A stretch of DNA of 38,486 nt from Verrucomicrobia bacterium GWF2_51_19 (lineage in GTDB: Bacteria > Verrucomicrobiota > Verrucomicrobiia > Opitutales > UBA12508). Of the stretch, positions 7,338 through 38,486 are shown piece after piece. The stretch lies in the NCBI GenBank assembly GCA_001831095.1, contig MIDP01000025.1, forward strand, positions 1 through 38,486. Reading direction: 5' to 3'. Positions within the stretch are counted from its first letter, which is position 1, and each line of letters opens with the position of its first letter. The position numbers and the translations under genes are program-made. The notes under the pieces are model-generated. The model searched no databases. It was not told the DNA's origin and saw only the letters and a program-made list of their open reading frames with translations.

Positions 7338-7476
7338 AAGACCTATGCAAAATGCCGTGAAAGCTCGTTTCGCGCTCCGCCGACTGCCTCACGTACCTCT
7401 ATGTACGCTACGGCAGCTCGTGCTCGCGCAAAGCCAAGCTTTGACGACATTTTGCATAGGTCTTTTATCGCGTCAA
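7326..7476. repeat. family A palindromic element, copy A1 (terminator-like)
   Basis: The core element runs from AAGACC at 7338 to GGTCTT at 7464. The arms pair perfectly for 29 bp (7326-7354 with 7448-7476), including the last codons and stop of the kinase gene. Inside the arms lie CTCGTTTCGCGC on the left and GCGCAAAGCCAAGCTTTGAC on the right, plus a pairing CTGCC / GGCAG. A-tract, stem, loop and T-tract (GGTCTTTTA) resemble a bidirectional intrinsic terminator. It is the best-preserved copy with the standard ~127-bp length. Confidence 0.93.
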
Positions 7477-7500
7477 TTATTTATATTTTACGAGAAAATA

Positions 7501-7517
7501 AAGACCGTTGAAAAATG
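7501..7517 (+). repeat. solo family B arm supplying the next start codon
   Basis: AAGACCGTTGAAAAATG is identical to the left arms of the B elements at 31128 and 34969. No matching right arm follows. Its last three bases are the first possible start codon of the M20 peptidase gene. Confidence 0.75.
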
Positions 7518-18251: not shown

Positions 18252-18440
18252 AAGACCTATGCAAAATGCCGTGAAAACTCGTTTCGCGCTGGGGGCAGCG
18301 GCCCCCGTACCCCCTAGGATGCTCACGCATCCACTTTTAAAAGTGGATACGCAGTATCCAAGGGTGCAGGGCCAGCCCTGCCGCTACGGCAGATCGTACT
18401 CGCGCAAAGCCAAGCTTTGACGACATTTTTCATAGGTCTT
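18252..18440. repeat. family A element with an expanded hairpin-rich centre, copy A2
   Basis: The ends AAGACCTATGCAAAATG (18252) and CATAGGTCTT (to 18440) and the inner blocks CTCGTTTCGCGC and GCGCAAAGCCAAGCTTTGAC match A1. About 60 extra bases replace the simple loop. They contain several perfect small palindromes: ATCCACTTTTAAAAGTGGAT, GGATGC/GCATCC, TGGATAC/GTATCCA and CAGGGC/GCCCTG. It starts one base after the glnQ stop. Confidence 0.92.
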
Positions 18441-20066: not shown

Positions 20067-20311
20067 AAGACCGGTGTAAAATGGATGCAAAAATGTGGCT
20101 TTGCGCGAGTACGATTTGCCGTAATAGCAGCGTTATCCATCCGGATTCGCCAATTTCTTTTGCGAAATATAAAAATGCATGCATTTTTGTGTTTCGCTTT
20201 AAAAGTTTTTTGGAGAGGGGGTCGGGGAGAGACTTTTTTTCAAAAAAGTCTTTCCCCGTGGCCAGTCGACGGAGCGCGAAACGCATTTTGGCGCCATTTT
20301 ACACCGGTCTT
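20067..20311. repeat. composite element: inverted family A copy carrying a family C insert
   Basis: Perfect 18-bp ends AAGACCGGTGTAAAATGG (20067-20084) and CCATTTTACACCGGTCTT (20294-20311) enclose the family A inner blocks in reverse order (GGCTTTGCGCGAG on the left, GCGCGAAACGC on the right). This copy therefore lies opposite to A1. Its loop contains the family C hairpin at 20188-20258. It starts five bases after the permease stop and ends two bases from the CCA end of tRNA-Leu on the other strand, so it sits where transcripts converge. Confidence 0.88.
20188..20258. repeat. family C hairpin repeat, copy 1 (nested)
   Basis: TGTGTTTCGCTTTAAAAG opens the repeat, followed by TTTTTTGGAGAGGGGG. 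A hairpin of GGGGAGAGACTTTTTT against AAAAAGTCTTTCCCC closes it. The first 30 bases resemble those at 37716, and in both places a purine-rich GGGGA(A/G)A stem follows. It appears inserted in the loop of the family A element. Confidence 0.65.
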
Positions 20312-20397: not shown

Positions 20398-20418
20398 ATT
20401 TTGCGAGTATCTGAAATA

Positions 20419-20518: not shown

Positions 20519-20554
20519 TTTAAAGGCCATCGTATCTTGAGCACAAGGAAAAGT

Positions 20555-24362: not shown

Positions 24363-24382
24363 ATGCGGCTTACATCGGTATA

Positions 24383-24458: not shown

Positions 24459-24475
24459 ATACAATAAAACGAGTT

Positions 24476-24506: not shown

Positions 24507-25391
24507 CCCCAAATCCCGCAAGAGGTTTTCGACGGCCTGTGTCTCCATGGCGTCGCGGCACTGCTTGGTATAGGTGCTGATGTGTGGTGTGAGGAGCGCA
24601 TTGGAGCATTGAGTGAGTGGGCCATCGTAGGGCTCTTTTGCAAAAACGTCGAGCCAGCAAGCAGCCACCTTCCCTCTATTGAGTGCCTCAATGAGCGCCA
24701 CTTCGTCGACCAACTCACCGCGGGCAGCATTGAGGAGAATGGCGCCTGTTTTGACCCTTTTAATCGTTTCGTTCGTGAGAATGGGCGTGTTTCCAGAAGC
24801 GTGAATCGTGATGACATCAGCCTGAATCAGGCCCTCTGCGAGCGTCGGCAAAGAGAGGTTTGGCAGTTGTGGATCGTAGATGAGAATGTTTGCCCCAAGG
24901 GTCTTTAAAAGCGTCCCGACTTGGCGACCGATACGGCCATAGCCGATCACGAGAACCGTTAGGCCGTCGATCGATAGGCCGATGGCCTTGTTCCATTTTT
25001 TCTCATGGAGGGCCTGGTTGGCTGGGACGAGGCCGCGTGCGAGGCAGAGGAGTGCCGCGAGTGTCATTTCCGCGACGGCCTTTGTAGGGCCTTCAGGGGT
25101 ATTGGAGACGCGAATGCCGCATGATTTGGCACAGGCGATGTCGACATTGTCGAGGCCAATGCCTATGCGACTGATGGCCTTCAACGAGCTTGTTGACTTG
25201 AGTACAGTGGCGTTGTAGGGCTCAAGACCGGCCAAAACGCCATCGGCGCCCTTGAGAAACTCAATCGTCTCTGACTCCGTTAGCTTGCGGCCAAATGGGT
25301 TTTTGACGCACTCAATGCCATATTGGCGGAGTCGCTCGATGGGCTTGTCCGAAGTTGCCGCGAAGGAAGAAGCGCCGACGACGACCCGCAT
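24480..25391 (-). CDS. D-2-hydroxyacid dehydrogenase, 3-phosphoglycerate dehydrogenase-like
   Basis: The 303-residue enzyme has the two-domain fold of NAD-dependent D-isomer 2-hydroxyacid dehydrogenases. Visible signatures are a substrate domain (ISRIGIGLDNVDIACAKSCGI), the nucleotide fold VLVIGYGRIGRQVGTLLKTLGANILIYDPQ, and the catalytic Arg (LLNAARGELVDE), Glu (WLDVFAKEPY) and His (LLTPHISTYT). I take the ATG at 25391, which overlaps the upstream SIS stop codon as TGATG, rather than a longer start inside that gene. SerA-type regulatory domains are absent. Its place as third gene of a sugar-nucleotide operon suggests oxidation or reduction of a sugar-acid intermediate rather than serine synthesis. 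That is inference; a general 3-PGDH role is possible. Confidence 0.88.
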   Translation of the reverse strand: MRVVVGASSFAATSDKPIERLRQYGIECVKNPFGRKLTESETIEFLKGADGVLAGLEPYNATVLKSTSSLKAISRIGIGLDNVDIACAKSCGIRVSNTPEGPTKAVAEMTLAALLCLARGLVPANQALHEKKWNKAIGLSIDGLTVLVIGYGRIGRQVGTLLKTLGANILIYDPQLPNLSLPTLAEGLIQADVITIHASGNTPILTNETIKRVKTGAILLNAARGELVDEVALIEALNRGKVAACWLDVFAKEPYDGPLTQCSNALLTPHISTYTKQCRDAMETQAVENLLRDLGLTEFQQSL

Positions 25392-26002
25392 CAATGACGG
25401 CCCCCCTCGTACATATCGAGAAAGGCGTCCAGCCAGCAATGCAGGATAAAGGCGTGGCAAACTTCCGTTGTGCCGTAAGTTTCGCAGGGCACGTAAAAGT
25501 TGAAATCGCCTAGCTGGCGCGATGGGTTATCGGGACGTTTTCCAGACAGTGTCACGACGAAGATGCCCTTTTCTTTGGCCTTCTGTATGGCCTTGACGAT
25601 GTTTGGAGAGCTGCCCGAGCTGCTCGTTGTAACAACGATGTCATTTTGCCTGGCGAGCTTGTCAACCTTGAAGGAAAAGACAGCCTCAAACGAGATGTCA
25701 TTGCTGATGGCCGTTAAATAAGAGGTCTCCGAGCAGGTTGATGTCCTGACTTTTGCATTTTGCAAGAAATCGAAGCTCATATGTTCACCCATCGTAGCGC
25801 TGGCGCCGTTTCCAAAAAAGAACAGCGTGCCGTCATTGTCGCGCAAATACTTTGTTCGCTTGGCCAACTCGGCAAAGCCCTTATCTAGCTGCAAGCTTTT
25901 CCCGAAAAGCGTGATTTCCATGTGGTCGAGCGCCGAACTGATGTATGTTTTGTACTCTTGAAAGTACGCCGTTTGCTGAGTCGAGGAAGCTGTTGTTTTC
26001 AT
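25391..26002 (-). CDS. SIS-domain phosphosugar isomerase, GmhA-like
   Basis: The 203-residue protein is a single SIS domain of the GmhA/DiaA group. Motifs are LFFFGNGASATMGEHMSFDFLQ, NDIVVTTSSSGSSPNIVKAIQKAKEKGIFVVTLSG and YGTTEVCHAFILHCWLDAFLD. The Ser-rich loop binds sugar phosphate, and the C-terminal Glu/His-bearing helix matches the heptose-isomerase catalytic region, so conversion of a ketose phosphate to an aldose phosphate is the likely reaction. It overlaps the cytidylyltransferase gene by 4 bp and the dehydrogenase gene by 1 bp, so all three are translated together. A canonical ADP-heptose role would predict hldE/gmhB neighbours, which are absent. A role in making a CMP-activated sugar fits the context better. 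Confidence 0.85.
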   Translation of the reverse strand: MKTTASSTQQTAYFQEYKTYISSALDHMEITLFGKSLQLDKGFAELAKRTKYLRDNDGTLFFFGNGASATMGEHMSFDFLQNAKVRTSTCSETSYLTAISNDISFEAVFSFKVDKLARQNDIVVTTSSSGSSPNIVKAIQKAKEKGIFVVTLSGKRPDNPSRQLGDFNFYVPCETYGTTEVCHAFILHCWLDAFLDMYEGGRH

Positions 26003-26700
26003 AGTTGTATGGATTCGAAATATTTTTGAGGAAACGGCCGTTGTCTAGACAGCAAAATCCCTTCTGCGATGCGCCAATCCTCTTCGGTGTCGAGATCACA
26101 GGCCTCGTCTTTTGGAATTTCAAACGTCGACAATCGCCCGCCAAACACGGGACATTCGCCGCTCTCTTGCAATTTCAGAAAAGTCGATCGTCGCCAAGCC
26201 GTCAAGGCCCAAACGACTTTTTGTGTCGGTTCCAAGGCCTGCGAGGGCCGCTTTTCACCCAATGAAAAATTGAGCGGCTGCTCCTTAAAAAACGTCTCCG
26301 CGCGCTCGCTGACTACAGACAAAACCGTATCGTATTCATCTCGTTTAACAAAATTGACAAAGTGCATGATGGTCTGGACGCGCAAGACTGGCGAGGTTGA
26401 GTTTACCATGACGAGAAAGTCGCAATCGTGTTGCTTGAGGAATTCATAAGTAAATTCCCGATTGGTCGCGATATCGTTGGCCAATTCTGCGGGTCTCGCG
26501 TGATACCGAATGCCAAACTGTTTGCCGATCTCGCCAAAAACAGGCTCTTCGCTGTTCACCCAGATTTGGTCAAAGGCCTTACTCTGTGCCGCCAATGACA
26601 TGGCGTATGAGATGAGTGGTTGTCCAGCCATGTAGCGCACGTTTTTACGCACAATCCGCTTAGAGCCCATTCTGGCAGGTATCATTGCCAATATCCGCAT
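25999..26700 (-). CDS. CMP-sugar (NeuA/acylneuraminate-type) cytidylyltransferase
   Basis: The 233-residue enzyme begins MRILAMIPARMGSKRIVRKNV, the nucleotide-binding P-loop of CMP-nonulosonate and related cytidylyltransferases, with GQPLISYAMSLA following. Further motifs are FLVMVNSTSPVLRVQTIMHFV (the metal/CTP region, usually Q/N-x-T-SP) and a C-terminal DEACDLDTEEDWRIAEG typical of NeuA-type proteins. It would activate a sugar acid with CTP. I use the ATG at 26700. An in-frame ATG at 26748 has no family support and would place the putative promoter inside the gene. It is the first gene of a three-gene operon with the SIS isomerase and dehydrogenase. No NeuB-type synthase is present in the window, so the sugar made is unknown. 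Confidence 0.85.
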   Translation of the reverse strand: MRILAMIPARMGSKRIVRKNVRYMAGQPLISYAMSLAAQSKAFDQIWVNSEEPVFGEIGKQFGIRYHARPAELANDIATNREFTYEFLKQHDCDFLVMVNSTSPVLRVQTIMHFVNFVKRDEYDTVLSVVSERAETFFKEQPLNFSLGEKRPSQALEPTQKVVWALTAWRRSTFLKLQESGECPVFGGRLSTFEIPKDEACDLDTEEDWRIAEGILLSRQRPFPQKYFESIQL

Positions 26701-26704
26701 GCAG

Positions 26705-26735
26705 ATAATAGTGCAGCAAACCATAAAAACTTCAA
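26705..26735 (-). promoter_or_regulatory. putative promoter of the CMP-sugar operon
   Basis: On the minus strand TTGAAG (26735-26730) and TATTAT (26710-26705) are 19 bp apart. The start site would fall at the ATG (26700-26698), another leaderless-like arrangement. Confidence 0.35.
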
Positions 26736-26829
26736 GTGTAAACGCCAATTAAACAACTAAGCGCAACACTCGGACGAAAAGAGTGGTAGGACGCGGAGAT
26801 GTAATGTGTCGCTTTTGCAGTTTTTTTAG

Positions 26830-26859
26830 TTGACACGGAGCCCATATTCAGCGTCATTT
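26830..26859 (+). promoter_or_regulatory. putative promoter of the ankyrin-like gene
   Basis: TTGACA at 26830-26835 is a perfect -35 hexamer. The matching -10 is weak (TCATTT at 18 bp). The ATG is at 26867, 37 bases after the hexamer starts. Confidence 0.3.
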
Positions 26860-26866
26860 AAACATC

Positions 26867-27682
26867 ATGCGTTTATTACCCCTGTTTTTTGTCGCCAGTC
26901 TTTGTTGCGGGCGGCCCATTACCGAATATCTCATCGAATCGTGCCAAAAAGGGGACACTAACGGCATCAAGAAAGCAGCTTACAACGTAGATGATTATAA
27001 AGATTTCGACACATGTGACGAGAGTGGGTTGCCGCCATTGTTTATCATTTTTTCGAGTGCGGAAAACAGCGGTAAACAGTTGGAGCACGTGAAGTTATTG
27101 TCTTATTATGGCGCTCGGTTCAGCGTCACCAATGCACAAGGCCTGCCGTTTTTGTCTTTTTTTGCGGGCCTGGCTTTATCGGGAGATGTGTCGTATGACA
27201 TTGTTCAAGAAACGTTGGCTAGTGCCGATTACAAAGATTTTAAGGCGATCGATGCCACTGAAGGCAACTTTTTGCACTTTATTTTTCAACAGCCCTTGAG
27301 CAACAAGACGCAACTGGTTTTGAGTCGTTTTTTTTGGGTTCATAATTCCATCAAAATATGGAGGCAAGCCGACTCATTTGGAAACACGCCTTTTTACTAT
27401 TTTGTGAAGCAACTGGAAAACGATCCCGATGCTTTGACGCGTGAACAGAAAGTGGAGCTCGTAAAGCTGATTGCCTTTAACACACCTTCTAATTTTGAGG
27501 TTTCTAAAAGTGGGCAATCCATTTTGACGCTCAAGTCACCAGAACACGTCAAAGATCAGACGCCAAAAAAGCTACGCAAAAAGACACCAGAAAGCAGAAG
27601 GCCACTGCCTGCAATTCAAGTCGAAATGCCGATCTCGAGCGAGCTCATGGAGGTTTTTAGAGAAGTGTACCTGTTTCGCTAA
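26867..27682 (+). CDS. exported protein with degenerate ankyrin-like repeats
   Basis: The 271-residue product starts with a signal peptide (MRLLPLFFVASLCCGRP). It continues with blocks resembling ankyrin helices: ITEYLIESCQKGDTNGIKKAA, then DESGLPPLFIIFSS, then LEHVKLLSYYGARFSVTNAQGLPFLSFFAGLALSG, then DATEGNFLHFIFQQPL, then DSFGNTPFYYFVKQL. The G-x-x-PL(F/H) turns and about 33-residue period suggest four or five diverged repeats, roughly residues 18-190. The last ~60 residues are Lys/Arg/Pro-rich and not repeat-like. Cysteines at the signal end could make it a lipoprotein (residues 13-14) though the lipobox is poor. A protein-binding role in the periplasm or outside is plausible. It stands alone, convergent with rodZ. 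Function unknown. Confidence 0.6.
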   Translation: MRLLPLFFVASLCCGRPITEYLIESCQKGDTNGIKKAAYNVDDYKDFDTCDESGLPPLFIIFSSAENSGKQLEHVKLLSYYGARFSVTNAQGLPFLSFFAGLALSGDVSYDIVQETLASADYKDFKAIDATEGNFLHFIFQQPLSNKTQLVLSRFFWVHNSIKIWRQADSFGNTPFYYFVKQLENDPDALTREQKVELVKLIAFNTPSNFEVSKSGQSILTLKSPEHVKDQTPKKLRKKTPESRRPLPAIQVEMPISSELMEVFREVYLFR

Positions 27683-27744
27683 CGCGTATCGATTTCGCTA
27701 ACGCGGTGAATGGACAGGCGAGAGTTTTGCCAGCTTTTAGCGAA
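27675..27744. terminator. inverted TTCGCTAA octamers between converging genes
   Basis: TTCGCTAA occurs at 27675-27682 (holding the stop of the ankyrin-like gene) and at 27694-27701. Its inverse TTAGCGAA is at 27737-27744 (holding the stop of rodZ). The outer copies can pair across the whole intergenic stretch. It may act as a bidirectional terminator, though no long T-run is present. Confidence 0.35.
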
Positions 27745-28519
27745 CGCTGACCCACCCAACACCATCCGACTGTGGCCGAATCAGTTCGCCATTTGCCTTT
27801 TTGATAACGAGATTCGAGCCCTTGGAAAAGGAAATTTTTACAAAGCCATCGGGCGTGATTATTTTCTGCTCACCTTTGTGTAAGGTTCCGGTGAAGAGCG
27901 GCTTTTTGTCTTTTTCTTGACGGACGAAAACCTGTACGTCATCAGAACCGATCAAAGAGAGAGTCGTATCTGCGCCGGCTTCTTGTGCGACGAGGGTGGT
28001 ATCAGAGATGGCGTTCTGCGTCTTGGACTTCGTGCCAAAAAACGAATTAATGAGAATCCCAATGAGAAGGATTGCTGCAAAAGTGCCACCGAAGATCAAA
28101 CCCGTGCGAAGGTAGAGTGCCTTGTTGTGCGGCGCGGCTGGCTGGGCCGTTTCTTTGTTGTTTGCGGGGGCGAGTTCCTCTTGCGCTGGCGTGTCGAGGA
28201 AGGGTGTGGGGAGGCTTTTATCGCGCTCTGTCAATTCCATGCGGCCAAAAAATTGACCCTCTTTTTTGCCCAATTTACTCGAGCCCAATACGAAAGCATT
28301 GTAATCGGTCAAAATGCTCTCGACATCCATTTTGAGGTATTTTGCGTAGAGTCGCACAAACCCACGTCGGTAAACCTCTGGCAACGCGATATCAAAATCG
28401 TTTTTTTCAAAACTCTGTAAAAAGTCTTTGCGGATCTTGGTAGTGTCAGACGCTTCCCTCAACGATATCCCTTGCTGCTTGCGCGCCTCTTCAAAACGTT
28501 CTCCAATATTTGCATTCAT
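27737..28519 (-). CDS. rodZ: RodZ-like cytoskeleton-associated helix-turn-helix membrane protein
   Basis: The 260-residue protein begins with a Cro/C1-type helix-turn-helix of the RodZ group (about 1-70: IGERFEEARKQQGISLREASDTTKIRKDFLQSFEKNDFDIALPEVYRRGFVRLYAKYLKMD). A polar linker, one membrane segment (about 137-160, LIFGGTFAAILLIGILINSFF) and a periplasmic C-terminal domain with VQVFVRQEKDKKPLFTGTLHKGEQKIITPDGFVKISF follow, the last resembling the DUF4115 domain of RodZ. RodZ links MreB filaments to the elongation machinery through its HTH domain and controls rod shape. No mreB gene is in the window. It is divergent from trxA and convergent with the ankyrin-like gene. Confidence 0.85.
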   Translation of the reverse strand: MNANIGERFEEARKQQGISLREASDTTKIRKDFLQSFEKNDFDIALPEVYRRGFVRLYAKYLKMDVESILTDYNAFVLGSSKLGKKEGQFFGRMELTERDKSLPTPFLDTPAQEELAPANNKETAQPAAPHNKALYLRTGLIFGGTFAAILLIGILINSFFGTKSKTQNAISDTTLVAQEAGADTTLSLIGSDDVQVFVRQEKDKKPLFTGTLHKGEQKIITPDGFVKISFSKGSNLVIKKANGELIRPQSDGVGWVSVR

Positions 28520-28658
28520 AAAGTATCTATTTTACTGTCCACTTGTAATTGATTCCCAAAAAGACACAAGCTTTTTTAAAAAAATTCACGGGTTCAATTT
28601 ACGCTTGACAAAAAAGACCATTCTAAAGACGCTCTAAGGAACTAACCAAGGTAAAAAG

Positions 28659-28985
28659 ATGTCAGAAAACATTCTCAACTTAAACAGCGCTAATTTTGAC
28701 AAGACTGTCAAGTCAGCGGACAAACTTATGCTGGTCGACTTCTGGGCTCCATGGTGTGGTCCATGCAGGGCGCTTGGGCCAGTCCTCGAAGAATTGGCTA
28801 CCGAATTTGACAAAAAGGTCCAAGTCTGCAAGGTCAACGTCGACGAAAATGGCGAGCTCGCTGCCAAATTTAACGTCCGTGGCATTCCAGCAATGTTCGT
28901 TCTCAAGAATGGCAAGGTCGTCGATCAGATGGTCGGCCTGGCTGCAAAGAACGATATTAAGTCCAAGCTTGAAGCTCACCTCTAA
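28659..28985 (+). CDS. trxA: thioredoxin
   Basis: The 108-residue protein is a classical thioredoxin: VDFWAPWCGPCRALGPVLEELA, with redox Cys33 and Cys36, and the cis-proline loop GIPAMFVLKNGKVVDQMVG. It reduces disulfides in the cytoplasm with electrons from thioredoxin reductase. The start ATG is preceded by a purine-rich AAGGTAAAAAG. A perfect TTGACA stands at 28604-28609, 55 bases upstream, though a matching -10 is not clear. The stop codon TAA is the first triplet of a family A left arm, and a strong hairpin terminator follows at 29044. Confidence 0.98.
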   Translation: MSENILNLNSANFDKTVKSADKLMLVDFWAPWCGPCRALGPVLEELATEFDKKVQVCKVNVDENGELAAKFNVRGIPAMFVLKNGKVVDQMVGLAAKNDIKSKLEAHL

Positions 28986-29020
28986 AAGACCTATGCAAAA
29001 TTTTGTGAAGGCTCGTTAGC
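28986..29020 (+). repeat. solo left arm of a family A element, copy A5
   Basis: AAGACCTATGCAAAAT is identical to the A1 left end, then TTTGTGAAGGCTCGTT follows with drift. It starts one base after the trxA stop. No right arm is present; an unrelated terminator hairpin follows instead. Confidence 0.8.
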
Positions 29021-29043
29021 TCGGTATTGAAAGTCCATTCAAC

Positions 29044-29075
29044 GTCCCGAAAATGCCAGCGTTTTCGGGACTTTG
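29044..29075 (+). terminator. strong intrinsic terminator after trxA
   Basis: GTCCCGAAAA (29044-29053) pairs perfectly with TTTTCGGGAC (29062-29071) around an 8-base loop and is followed by TTTG. The A-rich left side and T-rich right side let it work in both directions. Confidence 0.75.
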
Positions 29076-29101
29076 TTTAGGCACAATCAGGATAACTTCT
29101 T

Positions 29102-30850
29102 ATGTTAGCTTTTCTTCCATTTTTAAAGTATTTAAAGCCTTACCGCGGTGTAATTTTTGCGGCGTTTCTCTGTGGAGTGCTCTTCGGTGTCAGCAGTGGG
29201 GCGGCCATTCCGGTGATTTTTGAAAAAGTGTTTAAGGAGGTTTTCGAAGACACGGGGCGGGTTTACACGACCTGGAAGATTTGGGGAATTGCGTTGGCGG
29301 TGCCGGTTGTTTTTTTGATGCGTGGATTTTTTGGCTTTGCGAGCACCTACTTGATGAGTGTGGCGTCCTTGAGGATTTTAAAGGACATCCGCCGCGATGT
29401 CTTTGACAGCCTACAGCGGTATCCTTTGAGCTTTTTTGAGAAAAACAGCTCGGGTGACCTGATTACGCGCATTTCGAGCGATCCCGGCGTGATTCAGGAT
29501 GCCCTTCTGGATATTTCGACGGAGCTGATACGGCAGTCGATGCAGTCGCTTGCGGCGATGGGCACCTTGATTTACTGCGCGATTACCTACAAAAGTTTTT
29601 TCTTTGTCTTTGTGCTTTTGTTCGCGCTGCCATTGGTCCTGGCACCCATTCATCTGTTGAGAAAACAGCTGCATCGACGCGGTAAGCAGGTCCAGGAAAT
29701 GGGGTCAAAAATGTTGCAGCACTTGATTGAGAACCTCAGCTCGATTCAAGAAATCCGCTCATTTAATATGGAAAAACGGCAGAGCGACGTTTTTGTCGAC
29801 CGAGTCCAATCGTACACCAACACGGAACTGAAATTGCGCAAATACGAACAAATTCGGCAGCCGTCCATGGAGATTTTATCGGCGATCGTGATCAGTGTTG
29901 TTTTCCTTTTCGCCTACAGTCACAAAATGCCGTTCTCCGTCTTCTTGCAGATGGGCCTGGCGCTCTATTTTGGCATAGATCCCCTCAAGCGCATTGGTCA
30001 AATTATCGGCAAAGTCAACCGCTCGCAGGGCTCCCTTGAACGCATCAACGAGGTCTTGCATTACCAGTCGGAGATCCAAGACGCCCCCAATGCCGTTGTC
30101 CTGAAAAACGCGCGCGGCTACGTGCAATTTAAAAACGTCTCTTTTCGCTACCAGGAAACTGCTCCCTGGGCGCTTCAGAACGTCACCGTCGACGTGCCTG
30201 CGGGCAGTTTTTGTGCCCTCGTAGGACCGAGCGGTGCCGGCAAAAGCACGTTTGCAAAACTCCTCCCGCGCTTCTATGAGGCCGTTGAGGGCGACATCAC
30301 AATCGATGGCACCTCTATACGACAAATCCAGTTAGAGAGCTTGCGAAAAAACATTGGCGTCGTATCGCAAAACCCAGTCCTCTTCAACGACACGCTGTTT
30401 AACAACATCTGCATCGCGCGTCCCGAAGTTGCACCAGAGGCCGTTCTGGAAGCCTCTCGAAACGCCTTTGCTCACGAATTCATTGAAAAGATGGAGCATG
30501 GGTACAACACCCTTGTCGGCGAGCGCGGAGACAAGCTGTCTGGCGGTCAACGTCAGCGCATCGCGATTGCAAGGGCCTTTCTCAAAAACGCGCCCATTCT
30601 CATTCTCGACGAGGCGACTTCTGCCCTCGACTCCGAGAGCGAGCACTTTATTCAACAGGCAATTGCGAAGCTCGCTAAAGGCCGTACCGTGTTTACCATC
30701 GCTCACCGCCTTAGCACCATTCAGAACGCGGACATCATTCTCGTCTTCAACGACGGCCACATCGTCGACTCCGGAACACACGCAAAGCTGATTCACACCT
30801 CGAGCATATACGCCAATTTCGTTGAGAAACAGCAGTTAAAGATATCGTAA
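29102..30850 (+). CDS. msbA: MsbA-like lipid-exporting ABC half-transporter
   Basis: The 582-residue protein is an ABC exporter with a six-span membrane domain (about 1-315) fused to an ATPase domain (about 335-580). ATPase motifs are GPSGAGKST (Walker A, about 375), VVSQNPVLFNDTLFNNI (Q-loop), LSGGQRQRIAIARAF (signature), ILILDEATSALDSE (Walker B) and TIAHRLSTI (H-loop). The membrane domain holds SSGDLITRISSDPGVIQDAL, common in MsbA-type flippases. Its likely job is to flip lipid A-core or a similar lipid across the inner membrane, in line with the O-antigen ligase-like gene nearby. A drug or peptide exporter cannot be excluded from sequence alone. AGGAT upstream of the ATG is a modest Shine-Dalgarno. 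Confidence 0.85.
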   Translation: MLAFLPFLKYLKPYRGVIFAAFLCGVLFGVSSGAAIPVIFEKVFKEVFEDTGRVYTTWKIWGIALAVPVVFLMRGFFGFASTYLMSVASLRILKDIRRDVFDSLQRYPLSFFEKNSSGDLITRISSDPGVIQDALLDISTELIRQSMQSLAAMGTLIYCAITYKSFFFVFVLLFALPLVLAPIHLLRKQLHRRGKQVQEMGSKMLQHLIENLSSIQEIRSFNMEKRQSDVFVDRVQSYTNTELKLRKYEQIRQPSMEILSAIVISVVFLFAYSHKMPFSVFLQMGLALYFGIDPLKRIGQIIGKVNRSQGSLERINEVLHYQSEIQDAPNAVVLKNARGYVQFKNVSFRYQETAPWALQNVTVDVPAGSFCALVGPSGAGKSTFAKLLPRFYEAVEGDITIDGTSIRQIQLESLRKNIGVVSQNPVLFNDTLFNNICIARPEVAPEAVLEASRNAFAHEFIEKMEHGYNTLVGERGDKLSGGQRQRIAIARAFLKNAPILILDEATSALDSESEHFIQQAIAKLAKGRTVFTIAHRLSTIQNADIILVFNDGHIVDSGTHAKLIHTSSIYANFVEKQQLKIS

Positions 30851-30933
30851 GCGACCGTTAAAGACGTGACTTTTAAGGTGATTCCGCGCCTGACAGCCCT
30901 TTACAAAACGAAAGGTTTTTTAACGAAAATCAG

Positions 30934-31008
<75 letters not shown>

Positions 31009-31024
31009 ACTCGCAATTGAGCTT

Positions 31025-31055
31025 GTTATAGAAAATGAAATTCAAAACAAGTCAA
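31025..31055 (-). promoter_or_regulatory. putative promoter of the CAU tRNA
   Basis: TTGACT (31055-31050) and TATAAC (31030-31025) on the minus strand are 19 bp apart, and the -10 is about 17 bases before the tRNA. Confidence 0.45.
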
Positions 31056-31127
31056 GCCCAGATCAAAAATTTTGCGAAGTTTTGCATATCCAAACATTGA
31101 TGCAATGTATAGCAGAGACCACATTAC

Positions 31128-31203
31128 AAGACCGTTGAAAAATGCGCCTATAGCAAGACCAGAACGACGAGAACGACGTTTGATATTATTTTTCAACGGG
31201 CTT
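31128..31203. repeat. family B palindromic element, copy B1
   Basis: This 76-bp unit starts AAGACCGTTGAAAAATG and ends ATTTTTCAACGGGCTT, which pair with one mismatch. The middle holds GCCTATAGCAAGACCAGAAC and GACGAGAACGACG, close to B2. It sits between the divergent CAU tRNA and ileS, ahead of the ileS promoter, so it does not follow a gene end here. Confidence 0.85.
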
Positions 31204-31216
31204 GTGAGGTCTTTTC

Positions 31217-31244
31217 TTGACAAAAAAGGTAAGTCAGGCACAAT
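31217..31244 (+). promoter_or_regulatory. putative ileS promoter
   Basis: TTGACA (31217-31222) and CACAAT (31239-31244) are 16 bp apart. The ATG at 31272 follows with a GAGGG Shine-Dalgarno. Confidence 0.55.
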
Positions 31245-31271
31245 GGCCGCTTACATTTGAGAGAGAGGGAC

Positions 31272-34049
31272 ATGGCTGAAGATTTAAAAAACACACTCAA
31301 CTTGCCGCAGACGCAATTTCCCATGCGCGCCAATTCCGTTGAACGCGAGCCCATGCGCATTCAGCATTGGGAGGCGACGGAACTTTACAAAAAAGTTCAG
31401 GAAAAGAACCATGGCAAGCCGACCTTCATTCTCCACGACGGCCCGCCCTTCACCAATGGCGACGTTCACATCGGCACGGCCCTCAACAAGATTTTAAAAG
31501 ACATTCTCGTGCGGTACAAGTCGATGAATGGCTACCGGGCGCCCTATGTGCCTGGCTGGGACTGTCACGGGCTGCCGATCGAGCACAAAGTCATGAAGGA
31601 ACTGCAGGCTCAAAAGACGGTCTTGAGTCCAGACAAACTGCGTCATGCCTGTGCAGACTTTTCCGAATCTTTTTTAAAGAAGCAGCGGACGCAATTCAAG
31701 CGATTGGGCGTGATTGCCGACTGGGCGAACGAGTACAAGACAAAGAATCCGGCCTACGAGGCGATCATTTTGAGGACCTTTGCGACTTTCGTGGAGAAGG
31801 GGCTAGTTTACCGCAGTAAAAAGCCGGTCTACTGGTCGATTCCCTGTGAAACGGCCCTGGCGGAGGCAGAAGTCGAGTACAAGGACCATGTCAGTGATTC
31901 CATTTGGGTGCGTTTTCCGATCATCGATTGCGACCGCCTGGAGACACGCAAGCCAGCCTCGGTAGTCATTTGGACGACGACTCCATGGACGATTCCCGCT
32001 AATTTGGCCATCGCAGTCCATCCCGAATTGATCTATGTGGAGGTCGATGTTGGCAACGAAGTGCTGCTAGTCGCGCAGCCGCTCGCGGAGACGTTTTTAA
32101 ACGACTGTGGCCTGTCTGGAAAATTCGGAAAGACGCACAGCGGTTCCTCTTTGGAAGGCCTACAGACACGGCACCCGTTTATCGATCGCAAAAGCCCCGT
32201 TGTATTGGCCGATTACGTGACGACGGAGTCTGGAACAGGCTGTGTACACACGGCTCCCGGGCATGGTCTCGAGGACTACTTTACTGGCATCCGGTACGGA
32301 TTGGAGCCCTACAGCCCACTCGATGATGCCGGGTGTTACCTCAACGACGGTCGCATTCCGCAAAAGCTGGTTGGCCTGAGCGTTGCCGACATCGGTAATC
32401 GTTGCCCAGCCAATGAGGCGGTTTTAGAGTTGTTGAAGGCAAACAACGCCCTCCTGTGCTCACGAAAATACACGCACTCCTATCCGCACTGCTGGCGATC
32501 GAAGGCCCCGGTCATCTTTCGCGCGATGGAACAGTGGTTCGTCTCACTCGACGACTCAGCTAAAAAGGTCGCCTTTGCAGAAATCGAAAAGACGCGTTGG
32601 GTGCCGAGTTGGGGAGAAAACCGCATCAAGGGCGCAGTCGAGGGCAGGCCCGATTGGTGTATCAGCCGTCAACGCGCTTGGGGCGTCCCCATTCCCGCCT
32701 TCTACGACGCCGATGGCAATCCTTTACTCGATGCAAAGGTCATTCGCGGTATCGCCGAAAAGGTCGCCCAGGGAGGCTCCAATGTCTGGTTTGAAAAGAC
32801 CGTCGAGGAGCTCCTTGAGGGCATCGAGCTTCCTGAGCCTTTCCGCGGCAAAAAGCTCACAAAGGGCCGCGACACCCTCGACGTCTGGATCGACTCCGGA
32901 TGCAGTCATCGCGCCGTTCTGCAGCAAAATAAGGACCTTCAATGGCCGGCCGACCTCTACCTCGAGGGCAGCGATCAACACCGCGGTTGGTTTCAATCTT
33001 CGTTGTGGACAGGCCTGTTGGCAGACGGAAGGGCTCCATACAAGGCCGTTCTCACGCACGGCTTCGTGGTCGACGAAAATAAAAAGAAAATTTCCAAGAG
33101 CGAAGGCAAACCGCAGACCGCCGACAGCTATATCCAAAAGTGGGGGGCCGACATTTTGCGTCTGTGGATCGCGTCCACCGACTACACCAATGACATCCCC
33201 ATTTCGGAAGACATTTTACAACAGATCGTTTCCTGCTACCGAACGATTCGCAACACGCTGCGTTTCCAAATCGGCAACTTATTCGACTTTTCCTTTGAGA
33301 AAAACGCCGTTGATGAGCTGTCCTCGATCGACCGTTGGGCCCTCCACCAGACCAACGACCTCATTGAAAAAGTCACCGAGACCTACGATCAGTACGCCTT
33401 TCACAAGGTCTACCAGCTAGTCAACCGCTTTTGCGCCGTCACGCTGTCGGCCACCTACCACGACATCCTCAAGGATCGCCTCTACACTTACGCACCCGAT
33501 TGGCATGAACGCCGGTCCGCTCAGACAGTCATTTACAAGACCTTCCACGCGCTGATCGGCCTGTTGGCACCCATCCTCGCGCTCACGACCGATGAGGCCC
33601 TCGATTTCTTCCTCCAAGACAAAGACTTTTCTAAAGAGTCTGTCCACCTCAGAGACTTCCCGAAAGTCAACCCGAGTTGGGCCTTTAACGAGGCCGATGA
33701 AATCGATGCCCTCCTGGCCTTCCGTTCACGCGTCCACGAACAACTAGAGAGTGCCCGTCAACAAAAGCTATTGGGCCAGTCTCTCGATGCCAAGGTCGTC
33801 ATTCAGGGGCCTCAAAATGACCCCATTATGCAGCTGCTCCACAAATATCATGCGGAGCTCTGCGAACTCTTTATCGTCTCTCAAGTTTCCTTGCACGACG
33901 CGAGCGAACTCTCCGTCACTGTGACGCACGCAGACGGCGTACGTTGCCCCCGCAGCTGGCGTTGGGTCGACAAACTAGTCGATTGCAAAGAATACGGTCC
34001 CGTGTCTGAACGCTGCCAAAAGGCACTGCTGAAGACACGAACAATGTAA
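31272..34049 (+). CDS. ileS: isoleucyl-tRNA synthetase
   Basis: IleRS charges tRNA-Ile and edits valine. I take the ATG at 31272, with GAGGG five or six bases before it, instead of the upstream TTG at 31257; this gives 925 residues, the usual length. Class I motifs are HDGPPFTNGDVHIGTALNKILKD (HIGT in place of HIGH), PGWDCHGLPIEHKV, TTPWTIPANLAIAV (editing domain), WCISRQRAWGVPIPAF, DVWIDSGCSH and KKISKSEGK (the KMSKS loop). The C-terminal zinc-finger region reads GVRCPRSWRW, then SERCQKAL, so one Cys of the usual CxxCWR pair is Ser and the last pair is incomplete. Zinc binding is therefore doubtful. The DksA-like gene follows within 22 bp. Confidence 0.97.
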   Translation: MAEDLKNTLNLPQTQFPMRANSVEREPMRIQHWEATELYKKVQEKNHGKPTFILHDGPPFTNGDVHIGTALNKILKDILVRYKSMNGYRAPYVPGWDCHGLPIEHKVMKELQAQKTVLSPDKLRHACADFSESFLKKQRTQFKRLGVIADWANEYKTKNPAYEAIILRTFATFVEKGLVYRSKKPVYWSIPCETALAEAEVEYKDHVSDSIWVRFPIIDCDRLETRKPASVVIWTTTPWTIPANLAIAVHPELIYVEVDVGNEVLLVAQPLAETFLNDCGLSGKFGKTHSGSSLEGLQTRHPFIDRKSPVVLADYVTTESGTGCVHTAPGHGLEDYFTGIRYGLEPYSPLDDAGCYLNDGRIPQKLVGLSVADIGNRCPANEAVLELLKANNALLCSRKYTHSYPHCWRSKAPVIFRAMEQWFVSLDDSAKKVAFAEIEKTRWVPSWGENRIKGAVEGRPDWCISRQRAWGVPIPAFYDADGNPLLDAKVIRGIAEKVAQGGSNVWFEKTVEELLEGIELPEPFRGKKLTKGRDTLDVWIDSGCSHRAVLQQNKDLQWPADLYLEGSDQHRGWFQSSLWTGLLADGRAPYKAVLTHGFVVDENKKKISKSEGKPQTADSYIQKWGADILRLWIASTDYTNDIPISEDILQQIVSCYRTIRNTLRFQIGNLFDFSFEKNAVDELSSIDRWALHQTNDLIEKVTETYDQYAFHKVYQLVNRFCAVTLSATYHDILKDRLYTYAPDWHERRSAQTVIYKTFHALIGLLAPILALTTDEALDFFLQDKDFSKESVHLRDFPKVNPSWAFNEADEIDALLAFRSRVHEQLESARQQKLLGQSLDAKVVIQGPQNDPIMQLLHKYHAELCELFIVSQVSLHDASELSVTVTHADGVRCPRSWRWVDKLVDCKEYGPVSERCQKALLKTRTM

Positions 34050-34070
34050 AAACAAACATCAACACATTAT

Positions 34071-34871
34071 ATGGCGAATCGAAAAAAACAAGATCCTGAT
34101 AACAAAAGGCTAGCAAAAGCAAAAAGCCTCTTGCTAAAACTCAGAAAGAAAAATAATGCGTCCAACCCACTCCGTGATAGCAAAAACACCCCGATTGTTT
34201 TCACGCTAGATGACGTCCAGGCCGTGCTCGCCAATAAGCAAGCCAATAAGCAAGCCGATAAGCCCGTCATCGTCCAGGCCGCTCTCGCTAATAAAATAGT
34301 CCAGGCAAAACCAGAAAAACAACGCACGCTTCAGGCAGTCTCAGTCAGCGATATCCTTGGCTTTAACATTGCCAATCGCAAAAAAGTCAAATCTTTGCGG
34401 GAAATGGAAAAAGTGTCACCAAGGTTTAAGCCCTATTTCGATATCCTCGTTGCCCTCGAGAAAAAAGTTCAGGGAGAAATAGAAGAACACGCTCACGATA
34501 CCCTTAAACACACAGATGCTTCCGGAGAGACCGCAGGTAACGATATGCTCAATAAGGACGCCGATAGCTACGACCTCGACTTCGCCCTTGGCATTGTCAC
34601 CAGCGAAAAACTCCTCCTCGACGAAATTGAACAGGCGATCGACCGTATCTTCGACGGCTCTTACGGCATCTGCGAAGTCACAGGCAAACCAATACCTAAG
34701 GAGCGCTTGTTAGCCGTCCCATTCACACGCTGCTCCCTCGAAGGCCAAAAAGAACAAGAACGGAAAAATGCTGCCCTTAGGAAAAAACCTGTCGACGAGG
34801 GCGTCTTTACCCGCGACGACGATGACGACGATATACCACTCACTTACACAGAAGAAGAATCCGATTTATAA
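34071..34871 (+). CDS. DksA/TraR-family protein with long Lys-rich N-terminus
   Basis: The 266-residue product ends in a DksA/TraR-type region (about 165-240). A coiled-coil-like acidic helix (DLDFALGIVTSEKLLLDEIEQAIDRIF) is followed by GSYGICEVTGKPIPKERLLAVPFTRCSLEGQKEQE. Only one Cys is left in each half of the C4 zinc finger (CEVTG and CSLEG). DksA proteins enter the RNA polymerase secondary channel and tune transcription, often with ppGpp; Zn-poor variants exist. The first ~60 residues are Lys/Asn-rich, and residues about 47-85 hold an internal duplication (VQAVLANKQANKQADK and VQAALANKIVQAK). The gene follows ileS by 21 bp and is likely in its operon. Its stop TAA begins a degenerate family A element. 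Confidence 0.85.
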   Translation: MANRKKQDPDNKRLAKAKSLLLKLRKKNNASNPLRDSKNTPIVFTLDDVQAVLANKQANKQADKPVIVQAALANKIVQAKPEKQRTLQAVSVSDILGFNIANRKKVKSLREMEKVSPRFKPYFDILVALEKKVQGEIEEHAHDTLKHTDASGETAGNDMLNKDADSYDLDFALGIVTSEKLLLDEIEQAIDRIFDGSYGICEVTGKPIPKERLLAVPFTRCSLEGQKEQERKNAALRKKPVDEGVFTRDDDDDDIPLTYTEEESDL

Positions 34872-34943
34872 AAGACGGTGTAAAATCGCGTGAAAACTCG
34901 TTTCGCGCATTGTAGAACTTTGACAGCATTTTTTAGGTTTTTT
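34872..34943. repeat. shortened family A element, copy A3
   Basis: AAGACGGTGTAAAATCGCG, then CTCGTTTCGCGC on the left, and AACTTTGACAGCATTTTTTA on the right, match the A arms. The middle is missing. It starts one base after the DksA-like stop and ends with a T-run, so it may still terminate transcription. Confidence 0.75.
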
Positions 34944-34968
34944 TACGAATTAATAACTGATGAAAGGG

Positions 34969-35044
34969 AAGACCGTTGAAAAATGAGCCTATAGCCAGGC
35001 CCGAACGACGAGAACGCCGCTAGAGGACATTTTGCAATGGTCTT
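34969..35044. repeat. family B palindromic element, copy B2
   Basis: The 76-bp unit starts AAGACCGTTGAAAAATG, has GCCTATAGCCAGGCCCGAAC and GACGAGAACGCCGCTAGAG inside, and ends CATTTTGCAATGGTCTT. The right end carries an ATG (35037) in frame with the following gene. It lies 25 bp after A3. Confidence 0.88.
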
Positions 35045-35048
35045 ACAC

Positions 35049-35654
35049 ATGAGAGCAAAAGATTTTTTCAATATAGATGAGATTTTCAGATTTAAGGGTA
35101 TATTTGATAGAGAACTGGGACCGTGGGAGTGGGTAAAGTTGGTAGGGATGGCGTTGGAAGGTGTGGATTTTTCGCAGTCGGAGCGGTACAAGATACCTCC
35201 AGGATTATTTGTTGGGGAAAAGGTTTTTTTTGAAAGAGGGGTGAAGTTGCCGCACTTTGGAACAATCGAGGGTCCGGCGTACATTGGGGAGGGGAGCGAG
35301 CTGCGACCTGGCGTCTACATTCGGCAAAACGTGATTGTCGGTAAACGTTGTGTTCTCGGCAACAGTTGCGAATTTAAGAATTGCCTGCTCTTGAACGACG
35401 TCCAGGCGCCACATTTTAACTACGTTGGAGATTCCATTCTCGGCAACCACAGCCACCTCGGCGCAGGTGTCATCTTGGCCAACCTCCGACTCGACTCCCA
35501 GCCCATCCGCGTCAAAACACTCAATGGTTTCATCGATACCGGTATGCGCAAACTTGGCGCTGTCCTCGGTGATTCCGCCCAGGTCGCTTGCAACTCCGTC
35601 CTCAACCCAGGTACCCTTGTTAAACCTCATCAACATGTTTTGCCACGGCGATAA
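35049..35654 (+). CDS. left-handed beta-helix hexapeptide-repeat protein (GlmU-C/LpxA-like)
   Basis: The product of about 201 residues has a leading segment (FFNIDEIFRFKGIF), then hexapeptide repeats of a left-handed beta-helix from about 60 to 195: IEGPAYIGEGSELRPGVYIRQNVIVGKRCVLGNSCEFKNCLLLNDVQAPHFNYVGDSILG, NHSHLGAGVILANLRLDS, then a final stretch GAVLGDSAQVACNSVLNPGTLV. The NYVGDSILG and GAG-ANL motifs are those of the GlmU acetyltransferase domain and related sugar-nucleotide acyltransferases. No uridylyltransferase domain precedes it, so it is a stand-alone beta-helix, probably a transferase acting on a sugar nucleotide. The ATG at 35037 lies within a family B arm; I prefer 35049. Its TAA stop is the start of a family A element. 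Confidence 0.78.
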   Translation: MRAKDFFNIDEIFRFKGIFDRELGPWEWVKLVGMALEGVDFSQSERYKIPPGLFVGEKVFFERGVKLPHFGTIEGPAYIGEGSELRPGVYIRQNVIVGKRCVLGNSCEFKNCLLLNDVQAPHFNYVGDSILGNHSHLGAGVILANLRLDSQPIRVKTLNGFIDTGMRKLGAVLGDSAQVACNSVLNPGTLVKPHQHVLPRR

Positions 35655-35780
35655 AGACCTATGCAAAATGCCGTGAAAGCTCGTTTCGCGCTGCGTCGAC
35701 TGCCTCACGTACGTCTGTGTACGCTACGGCAGGTCGTGCTCGCGCAAAGCCAAGCTTTGACAGCATTTTTCACAGGTCTT
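35654..35780. repeat. family A palindromic element, copy A4
   Basis: This 127-bp copy runs AAGACCTATGCAAAATG ... CACAGGTCTT and carries CTCGTTTCGCGC, TGCCTCACGTACG and GCGCAAAGCCAAGCTTTGAC. It is the closest match to A1 in length and order. It shares the last base of the preceding gene's TAA. It is open in one frame, which extends the next ORF backwards artificially. Confidence 0.93.
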
Positions 35781-35849
35781 TGCTCATTAAAGAAAGAACG
35801 ATATAGCTTCCACTCGCAAAAAAAAGGGTTTTCCGCAAAATGCGTTTCG

Positions 35850-37595
35850 GTGCTAATATTTCCTTTCTTTTTTGCTGCTTGTGGGGAGGTGCCGAAGGTG
35901 GAGCGCGGTGGGCACGCGTTACCGGAGGATGTATGTGTTGTGGGGAACGGGGTGGGGGAGTACGGTGGTGTTTTTGTATTGTCGGGGGCTGATGAGCCAA
36001 AAAGTTTCAATTTCCTGGTCTCATTGGACCACACATCGAGTCAAGCACAGGGGTATTTATTCAACGCGTTGATCGATTTCAACCCGATGACGCAGTCATT
36101 TGAGCCGGCCCTGGCGAAGAGTTGGGAAGTCGCGGAGGACCACCGACATTTCCGCTTTGAGCTGCGTAAGGGCGTGTGTTGGAGTGACGGTGTGCCGTTG
36201 ACGGCAGACGATGTGATTTTTACCTGGGATTGTATTTTTGATAAAAGTTACCCGAACCGTTATGCAGGTCAATTCACGATAGGCGGCGAAGCGTTGAAGT
36301 ACGAGAAGGTGGATGACTTTACGGTGGTCTTCGAGACGGCCAAGCCGTTTGCGCCGTTCTTAAACGACATCAGCTCGATACAGGTGTTGCCGAAACACTG
36401 CCTGTGGGAACGGTTCCAGGACGGGACACTCTTGGAGGCCTGGTCGATGCAAACGGCGATCGACGACCCCCGTAGCATTGTAGGAACAGGGCCGTTCACC
36501 ATTGACCGCTATCACCCGTCAGAGTACATTCTACTGCGCGCGAACCCGCACTACTGGAAGGCGGACAAAAAGGGCCAACGTTTGCCGTACATCGACTTTC
36601 TCATCACGCAGTTTGTGAGCGACGTGAAGACGCAGGTGATCTTGTTTGCGACCGGCCAGACAGACGCGTCGAACATTCCATCGAGCGACGTTGTTTGGGT
36701 GCAGGCGGCGGCGAAGACGTACGACTTCACGCTCTACAACCGCGGCCCCGACGGCAGCATCTCGTTTATTTGGTTCAATCAACACCCGGGATCGCGAGAC
36801 GGCAAGCTCTACATTGAGCCCTACAAGTTGAAATGGTTCCAAAACCAGGCCTTTCGGCAGGCGATTATGTACGGATTCAACAGACAGGGGCTATTGGAGT
36901 CCGTCTATTCGAACGACGGCCGGCCGATCCATTCAATCATTGCCGAGGCAAATATCAAGTGGTATAACCCTCATGTCCGTCAATACCCGTATGATCCCGG
37001 CCGTGCCCGGGCACTGCTCGCGCAAAACGGCTTTAGACTGAAGAACAGCGAGCTCTTCGACATGGATGGCCACAGTGTCGCCTTTTCTCTGATCGTCAAC
37101 GATGGCAGCCCGCTCACATCCGGTTGCGCCACGACCTTTTGCCAAAACATGGAAGCTCTCGGCATTCACGTGCGCGTTCAGTATCTCGACTTCGGCGCGC
37201 TGCTCGACAAGGTTTCAAATAACTTTGACTACGAGGCCTCCATTATGGGCTTTACGGGCGGCGGTGATCCATCTGGCGGCAAGGCGATCTACCGCAGCGA
37301 CGGCAACATGCACCTCTGGTACCCAAACCAGAAGCAGCCAGCAACACAATGGGAGGCCGAAGTGGACGCCATTTGGGAACAACAGGAGTCCGAATTTGAC
37401 GAGGACAAACGCATTGCCCTCATTCACCGCATGCAGGCCATCTTCAGTGAACAACTGCCCCTGCTCTTCCTAAACACCCCCAACCGCTACACCGGTGTCA
37501 AAAATAAATGGCACAATGTCCAAATTCCACCTATGGACTCGATGCTATGGAACATCGACTGCCTGTGGGAAAGACCATTGCAAAATGGTCTCTAG
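35850..37595 (+). CDS. peptide-type ABC transporter substrate-binding lipoprotein (SBP_bac_5 family)
   Basis: The protein is a family-5 extracellular binding protein (OppA/DppA-like), about 580 residues. A hydrophobic stretch leads to lipobox FAAC and a Cys. ESBP5 features follow: GGVFVLSGADEPKSFNFLVSLDHTSSQAQGYLFNALIDFNP, PALAKSWEVAEDHRHFRFELRKGVCWSDGVPLTADDVIFTWD, IVGTGPFTIDRYHPSEYILLRANPHYW and a late YPNQKQPATQWEAEVDAIW. It would deliver peptides or other ligands to an ABC importer, but no permease or ATPase is nearby. The start is uncertain. A GTG at 35850 gives a very short signal. An ATG at 35840 is in another frame, and an ATG at 35661 lies in a repeat. The last seven residues and stop are encoded by a family B element. 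Confidence 0.85.
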   Translation: MLIFPFFFAACGEVPKVERGGHALPEDVCVVGNGVGEYGGVFVLSGADEPKSFNFLVSLDHTSSQAQGYLFNALIDFNPMTQSFEPALAKSWEVAEDHRHFRFELRKGVCWSDGVPLTADDVIFTWDCIFDKSYPNRYAGQFTIGGEALKYEKVDDFTVVFETAKPFAPFLNDISSIQVLPKHCLWERFQDGTLLEAWSMQTAIDDPRSIVGTGPFTIDRYHPSEYILLRANPHYWKADKKGQRLPYIDFLITQFVSDVKTQVILFATGQTDASNIPSSDVVWVQAAAKTYDFTLYNRGPDGSISFIWFNQHPGSRDGKLYIEPYKLKWFQNQAFRQAIMYGFNRQGLLESVYSNDGRPIHSIIAEANIKWYNPHVRQYPYDPGRARALLAQNGFRLKNSELFDMDGHSVAFSLIVNDGSPLTSGCATTFCQNMEALGIHVRVQYLDFGALLDKVSNNFDYEASIMGFTGGGDPSGGKAIYRSDGNMHLWYPNQKQPATQWEAEVDAIWEQQESEFDEDKRIALIHRMQAIFSEQLPLLFLNTPNRYTGVKNKWHNVQIPPMDSMLWNIDCLWERPLQNGL

Positions 37596-37692
37596 CGGCG
37601 TTCTCGTCGTTCGTGCTAAGTCACGTACCAACGTACGCTCCTGTCGCACTCATTCCTCGGGCCTTGCTATAGAGCCATTTTTCAACGGTCTT
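37571..37692. repeat. inverted family B element with enlarged loop, copy B3
   Basis: AAGACCATTGCAAAATGG at the left is the reverse complement of a B2-type right end, and the right end ATTTTTCAACGGTCTT is the reverse complement of the B left end, so this copy is reversed. CTCTAGCGGCGTTCTCGTCG and CCTTGCTATAG are recognisable. About 45 extra bases fill the loop. The preceding gene ends inside it. Confidence 0.88.
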
Positions 37693-37715
37693 TCAAAACA
37701 GATATAGCGCCCAAA

Positions 37716-37794
37716 TGTGTTTCGCTTAAAAAGTGTTTTGGAAGTGGTCCGGAGAAACATTTTATTCTATATAAAATATAAAAGGTTTCCCCGG
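37716..37794. repeat. family C hairpin repeat, copy 2
   Basis: TGTGTTTCGCTTAAAAAGTG, then GTTTTGGAAGTGG, resembles the insert at 20188. CCGGAGAAAC pairs with GTTTCCCCGG (37785-37794) with one mismatch around an AT-rich loop. It lies between a B element and the end of nifJ, so it may terminate nifJ. Confidence 0.65.
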
Positions 37795-37815
37795 GGCGAA
37801 TGACGGCATTGAGCC

Positions 37816-38486
37816 TTACTCCTTTGTTTCAGCGATTTTCTGGTAGAAGGCGTAATGTTTCTTGATAGTTTCTTCGGCGAAGGCCTCCAATGCTTTGGCG
37901 CGTTCCGGGTTTGACTGTTGCAACATGCGGTAGCGGCCCTCGTTGGAGATGTAGTCGTGGAGGGGGATCTTTGGTGCGCCCGAGTCCAGTTTCATTGGAT
38001 TTTCGGCGTCGCGAGGGTCGTAGCGGTAGAGTGGCCAGTGTCCACATTCGACTGCCTTCTTTTGTTGATCCATGCCTATATTGAGGTCATAGCCGTGGGC
38101 TATACAGTGGCTGTAGGCGACGACGAGAGACGAATGCTCATACGAAGTGGCTTCGGTGAAGGCCTTGAGTGTCTGTTGGTAATTGGCGCCCATGGCGACT
38201 TGCGCGACGTAGATGTTGCCGTAGGAGACGGCGAGCAGGCCGAGGTCCTTTTTTGGAGTGGGTTTGCCGGCCGCGGCGAACTTGGCGATGGCACCAATGG
38301 GTGTTGCCTTGGACTGTTGACCGCCCGTATTGGAATAAACTTCGGTGTCGAGGACGAGAATGTTGACGTTCTTTTGGCTCGCGAGGACGTGATCGAGGCC
38401 TCCATAGCCGATGTCGTACGCCCACCCGTCGCCGCCGATGATCCAGACAACCTTATCGACGAGGTAATCAGCCAAATCGAGGAGCC
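37816..38486 (-). CDS. nifJ: pyruvate:ferredoxin (flavodoxin) oxidoreductase, C-terminal part
   Basis: The gene enters from the right edge; about 223 C-terminal residues are present, in frame to the window end. VVWIIGGDGWAYDIGYGGLDHVLASQKNVNILVLDTEVYSNTGGQQSKATPIGAIAKFAAAGK is the thiamine-diphosphate domain of PFOR, including GDGWAYDIG and the NTGGQ-S signature. ATSYEHSSLVVAYSHCIAHGYDL and GHWPLYRYDP are also typical. PFOR oxidises pyruvate to acetyl-CoA and reduces ferredoxin, a hallmark of anaerobic metabolism. The protein would be a single-chain (about 1,170-residue) enzyme in related organisms, although the N-terminal part is outside. The end is intact, with a stop at 37818-37816. Confidence 0.96.
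   Translation of the reverse strand, partial: LLDLADYLVDKVVWIIGGDGWAYDIGYGGLDHVLASQKNVNILVLDTEVYSNTGGQQSKATPIGAIAKFAAAGKPTPKKDLGLLAVSYGNIYVAQVAMGANYQQTLKAFTEATSYEHSSLVVAYSHCIAHGYDLNIGMDQQKKAVECGHWPLYRYDPRDAENPMKLDSGAPKIPLHDYISNEGRYRMLQQSNPERAKALEAFAEETIKKHYAFYQKIAETKE

Follow-up and report, generated by a model that had tools for sequence, protein, structure and literature searches.

A dispersed double-hairpin repeat anchored at stop codons, probably a REPIN-like mobile element, in a 1.26 Mb bacterial genome

Hairpins and genes in the window

The window, which is the whole analysed stretch of 38,486 nucleotides, carries palindromes of two types, A and B, together with their remnants, at the boundaries of unrelated genes (Table 1). 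Both types end in AAGACC/GGTCTT, within 17-bp terminal inverted repeats. The first-pass annotation had described three full B copies and one arm, and all of them were present: two 76-bp hairpins, a reversed 122-bp copy and the arm at 7501. The end assigned to these copies, AAGACCGTTGAAAAATG, was exact at 7501, 31128, 34969 and 37692 (minus strand), whereas the right end of the copy at 31128 was degenerate. With up to three mismatches allowed, this end had 15 matches in the window compared to 0.31 expected (100 shuffles, maximum 2). The arm at 7501 had been taken as solo; it instead belongs, as left arm, to a truncated B preceded by a full A hairpin and a linker, and these form a composite at 7338-7517. 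A second composite, at about 34871-35044, consists of a decayed A, a linker and a short B.

The decayed A of the second composite lies directly at the TAA stop of a dksA/traR-type gene (34131-34871). The oligopeptide-binding-protein gene (36087-37595; Pfam SBP_bac_5) reads into the reversed B and ends at a TAG inside it, so that the hairpin encodes the C-terminal end of the protein, ERPLQNGL-stop (37571-37595). At the A copy behind the histidine-kinase gene, the inverted repeat (7326-7476) continues 12 bp past the element into the upstream coding end (TTGACGCGATAA ... TTATCGCGTCAA). The downstream flank looks like a copy of the upstream one, which may have arisen by template switching at a quasi-palindrome. 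So long an extension was not noticed at any other A copy. A heavily decayed A-like hairpin at 10330-10410 (TAAGACC ... CATAGGTCTTTT) also has its start inside a TAA, a hint that sites of this kind have seen turnover for a long time. In an Rfam scan of the window the hairpins had no match above the gathering score, and only tRNAs and a 6S RNA gene (15788-15970; RF00013, 67 bits) were found.

Table 1. Hairpins, linkers and hairpin remnants in the window
Feature	Position	Strand	Context and basis
Full A hairpin	7338..7464	+	Directly after TAA stop of histidine-kinase gene (5013-7337); HMM, covariance model
Composite linker	7465..7500	+	Sequence
Left arm of truncated B	7501..7517	+	Its ATG is the start of ORF 7515-8810; sequence
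A outer stem, alternative apical palindromic cassette	18252..18440	+	Directly after TAA stop at 18251
A outer stem (GGTGTAAAATGG subtype), second apical cassette	20067..20311	-	4 nt from 3' side of tRNA gene (20316-20397, -)
Left arm of decayed A	28986..29017	+	Directly after stop codon of gene 28659-28985; direct repeats, HMM
Short B hairpin, 76 bp	31128..31203	+	Degenerate right end AAGCCCGTTGAAAAATA; sequence; HMM B in two pieces
Decayed A hairpin	34871..34948	+	Boundaries approximate; HMM A match 34876-34910; direct repeats D5, D8
Composite linker	34949..34968	+	Ends in GATGAAAGGG (AAAGG motif); left boundary approximate; sequence, linker comparison
Short B hairpin, 76 bp	34969..35044	+	ATG at 35050 comes 5 nt later; sequence, HMM, covariance model
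Full A hairpin, 127 bp	35654..35780	+	Left end within TAA stop of gene ending at 35654; palindrome, HMM, covariance model
Full B hairpin, 122 bp	37571..37692	-	Strict palindrome, HMM, covariance model

A dispersed composite with conserved folding

The source genome comprises 1.26 Mb at an estimated completeness of ~92% (~8% missing). The organism is placed in or near the Opitutales on the basis of IleS, whose closest protein matches share 57-59% identity and derive for the most part from Opitutales/Opitutia metagenome assemblies. The 17-mer end AAGACCNNTGNAAAATG had 201 exact matches genome-wide compared to 0 for a reversed-pattern control. Covariance models built from strict copies detected at least 150 B-type and at least 127 A-type hairpins, both lower bounds because scoring was limited to 150 candidates per model. 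The further copies anticipated by the first-pass annotation thus exist in large number, and they lie beside unrelated genes on most contigs, which local tandem duplication does not explain. The copies have diverged, with a mean column identity of about 88-92%. One tandem array, at L052:819-1380, consists of three A hairpins at a spacing of 232 and 203 bp, with B-like pieces in the gaps, and then a B. Elsewhere the repeat is scarce: the 17-mer end had one isolated match among 51 other genomes of the order, none of them of the same family, and the full long palindrome was found neither in viral contigs nor across 84,980 prokaryotic species, in a collection possibly omitting the source genome itself. 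A literature search turned up no description of a comparable repeat from Opitutales or Verrucomicrobiota.

The usual form of the hairpin is a 114-128-bp palindrome (standard B 122 bp, A ~127 bp), most hits of covariance model R1 being full length. Strict palindromes numbered 50 long A/B compared to 3 short genome-wide, which reverses the earlier picture of a 76-bp basic unit with one enlarged copy. The rare 72-76-bp B form is missing 46-50 bp between two GCCCGA direct repeats and so may have arisen by slippage deletion, the opposite direction also being possible. On the same outer stem, the usual A loop can be replaced by either of two different palindromic apical cassettes. Those at 18252-18440 and 20067-20311 recur at unrelated loci (L034:9568-9757, L080:2790-2977, L038:1059-1304), and the hairpins are therefore modular, with interchangeable tips.

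The first-pass annotation had related A and B through their termini. They are indeed related, but the likeness goes beyond the ends: in comparisons of profile HMMs seeded with strict palindromes, A forward was homologous to B reverse over its whole length. Adjacent hairpins were arranged as A then B in the same direction in 39 of 57 pairs, separated by a linker of mostly 24-36 nt with related sequences such as TGTGTATTAACAACTTACGAAAGGA. Given the full-length homology in opposite orientation and the shared composite, we rejected the view of A and B as independent families, and a mobilising mechanism common to both is plausible. Alignments of composites across loci start at the left end of A and stop at the right end of B, with a modal offset of 0 at both. 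Bounded in this way, they point to a unit of spread of ~274 bp that consists of A (~127 bp), linker and B (~122 bp), with the hairpins inverted as in a REPIN. Many of the A or B hairpins that stand alone are probably what is left of a composite. Lone A hairpins score no lower than A within composites, and decay of singlets can therefore be argued for B only.

Folding of the hairpins is conserved. Among copies collected by HMM, with no palindrome pattern used, various Watson-Crick combinations are found at stem pairs 7 and 8, and in alignments of strict palindromes covariation exceeded shuffled and slid controls. In both hairpins G.T is more frequent than A.C on the same strand (34:10 and 53:11), and it is on this strand that the consensus folds better. 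Relative to the upstream gene the strand is sense for B and antisense for A. The strand bias speaks for recognition of one DNA strand per hairpin more than for an mRNA function of A; a common ancestor of A and B could also be the source of the shared bias.

Anchoring at stop and start codons

The placement of the hairpins at stop and start codons is an addition to the first-pass annotation. Gene boundaries were taken from a simple, purpose-written codon-usage caller, and the statistics cover about 519 kb chosen around elements, so they describe position and not overall density. Among 83 full A copies, 39 had the left end within -2 to +2 nt of the stop of a gene running in the same direction, compared to a mean of 2.5 and a maximum of 7 when each copy was shifted locally by up to 60 nt. 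In a further 15 of the 83 the gene enters the hairpin and the stop codon lies inside. Several genes owe their C-terminal codons to A copies (with ends at -23, -18 and -11). The abutted stop was TAA in 37/39 cases compared to 168/333 among all called genes. At junctions of -1 and -2 the element itself provides the A or AA of the stop codon; where the whole stop lies outside the element (junctions at 0 or more), 21 of 22 were TAA. Partial A remnants that retain the left end showed the same stop-codon position in 12/32, and position statistics for the inner ends (A right, B left) showed no comparable stop-codon clustering.

The right end of B lies near start codons, most often at 3-9 nt, or at the stops of convergent genes. 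There is a strong orientation bias, with A facing stops in 65:14 and B facing starts in 65:21, and copies also occur at convergent gene ends and after a tRNA. AAAGG is a frequent end of the linker where it meets B, and start codons are common within 10 nt behind B. Where a start codon lies that close, a Shine-Dalgarno (SD)-like motif was present directly before B in 12/29 copies, compared to 7/50 elsewhere (p=0.007); genes at L068 and L045, with likely starts 4 nt after B, were binned as starting inside B, which makes this test slightly conservative. No SD-like motif was found at the other 17/29 B copies that adjoin a start codon. Bridging of B by a linker SD-like motif is therefore a minority hypothesis, and as a general rule it had weak statistical support.

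Mobility and alternative explanations

We favour, with a probability of roughly 0.6, the reading that the hairpins all go back, as copies or remnants, to one REPIN-like mobile element, a non-autonomous and non-coding double hairpin with an insertion bias for stop codons. Dispersal, composite unit, conserved folding and stop-codon position are shown by the data; transposition in trans, like the enzyme and the strand used, is what we infer: a trans-acting activity would move the element, probably recognising one strand of each hairpin, and the whole composite would be copied into gene boundaries with its A end preferring TAA stops. Insertion inside TAA would still leave a stop because the A terminus begins with AA. 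Selection would remove insertions elsewhere and in less tolerable orientations, and the orientation bias (65:14 and 65:21) counts against the mobile-element reading to this extent, since it would need selection if insertion were purely selfish.

REPINs and BIMEs served by RAYT are high-copy extragenic palindromes whose unit of spread is an inverted doublet with a spacer (PMC3116915, PMC2817692). The repeat is like them in its inverted doublet with spacer, its additional singlets and its predicted hairpins in ssDNA or RNA. It differs in that each half is a ~120-bp hairpin, where a REP has 20-40 bp; in ends of AAGACC/GGTCTT in place of the REP tag GTAG/CGTC (PMC3733652); in the near base-pair precision with which its A end is set at stop codons; and in the apparent lack of a Y1/RAYT gene. 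The first-pass annotation expected a transposase elsewhere in the genome, but a search of the ~92% complete genome that covered six mobility families found none. The RAYT/Y1 profile (Y1_Tnp, PF01797), which was positive in 5 control genomes, had no match, and profiles for rve, DDE_Tnp_1, DDE_3, the IS110 type (Transposase_20) and reverse transcriptase (RVT_1) detected nothing. Nor was any gene flanked by the same ends found among the candidate end pairs examined; an autonomous copy bracketing a gene was considered at the wide pairs C16:22685-23664 and C15:30315-31619, and these looked like separate elements. With six enzyme families undetected, the repeat is not, on present evidence, a RAYT-served REPIN, though built like one. 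Its mobilising enzyme may lie outside the six families searched, or may have been lost.

Other small repeats offer partial parallels. ERIC/RU-1 (127 bp), RU-2 and RU-3 are MITE-like repeats that have been reported inside genes too (PMC2759123, PMC2229807). They share small size, palindromic structure, intergenic position, high copy number and a non-autonomous nature with the repeat described here, which differs as a 274-bp double hairpin with no apparent target duplication; ERIC/RU-1 was compared by length only. Mitochondrial double-hairpin and repetitive hairpin elements are likewise dispersed in intergenic DNA (PMC5910586, PMC2800124). They resemble the repeat as dispersed hairpin-forming elements, and differ from it as organellar and unrelated sequences. 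We know of no enzyme identified for these mitochondrial elements and of no stop-codon anchoring of this kind among them. Overall, the element resembles known bacterial REPIN and MITE repeats but is unusual in its termini, in where it inserts and in apparently lacking a mobilising enzyme.

An unlikely alternative is that the unit functions as an intergenic RNA cassette, which selection maintains and whose copies recombination homogenises. A would then protect the mRNA 3' end or slow translation at the stop. The linker and B would provide the following gene with its ribosome-binding region, in which a folded-out B places AAAGG near the start codon. The placement at stop and start codons and the orientation bias fit this, as does the enrichment of SD-like motifs, which is expected if B folds out. 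E. coli REPs offer a precedent near stops: PMC12306157, quoting Liang et al. 2015, puts about 11% of REPs at 15 nt or less from a stop codon, and such REPs are reported to reduce translation, an effect that A could have by analogy. Both are palindromes just downstream of stop codons, but about half of the full A copies lie within 2 nt, compared to 15 nt for the REPs, and here some of the stop codon's letters can belong to the element itself. Against an RNA cassette stand the many start-adjacent B copies that have no motif, the antisense direction of the better-folding strand of A, and the copies at convergent gene ends and after a tRNA. More doubtful still is a portable gene junction, which would land in TAA with the stop preserved and let its linker and B act as ribosome-binding region for the gene that follows; ribosomes would have to reach the start codon across a folded B hairpin of ~120 nt. 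If true, the element would have become the standard intergenic region of a small genome.

It is improbable that the repeat is a classical MITE moved by an insertion-sequence DDE transposase with a target-site duplication such as TA. The terminal inverted repeats, small size, dispersal and A/T-rich flanks would suit one, but rve, DDE_Tnp_1 and DDE_3 went undetected in the genome, and the flanks of the composites, compared at occupied sites, showed no consistent duplication. Amplification of A as an intrinsic transcription terminator is very improbable. A does follow stop codons directly, lies near a tRNA 3' end and has strong predicted hairpins, but apart from the few U in the stem itself a U-tract is absent, B is placed before start codons, and terminator prediction in window 18487-38486 gave 18 sites compared to 27.4 in shuffles without calling the A copies there. 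Local tandem duplication, chance palindromes or an assembly artefact, for which a few tandem arrays (L052, L045) and several contigs ending in repeats might be cited, can be practically dismissed, with diverged copies dispersed over most contigs and counts far above chance both genome-wide and in the window.

On the mobile-element reading, the repeat leads one to ask how REPIN-like doublets are copied when RAYT is missing. Together with its remnants it makes up a large share of the intergenic DNA of this small genome, and it is a natural case of a repeat able to enter stop codons and leave a stop in place, maybe also supplying a ribosome-binding region.
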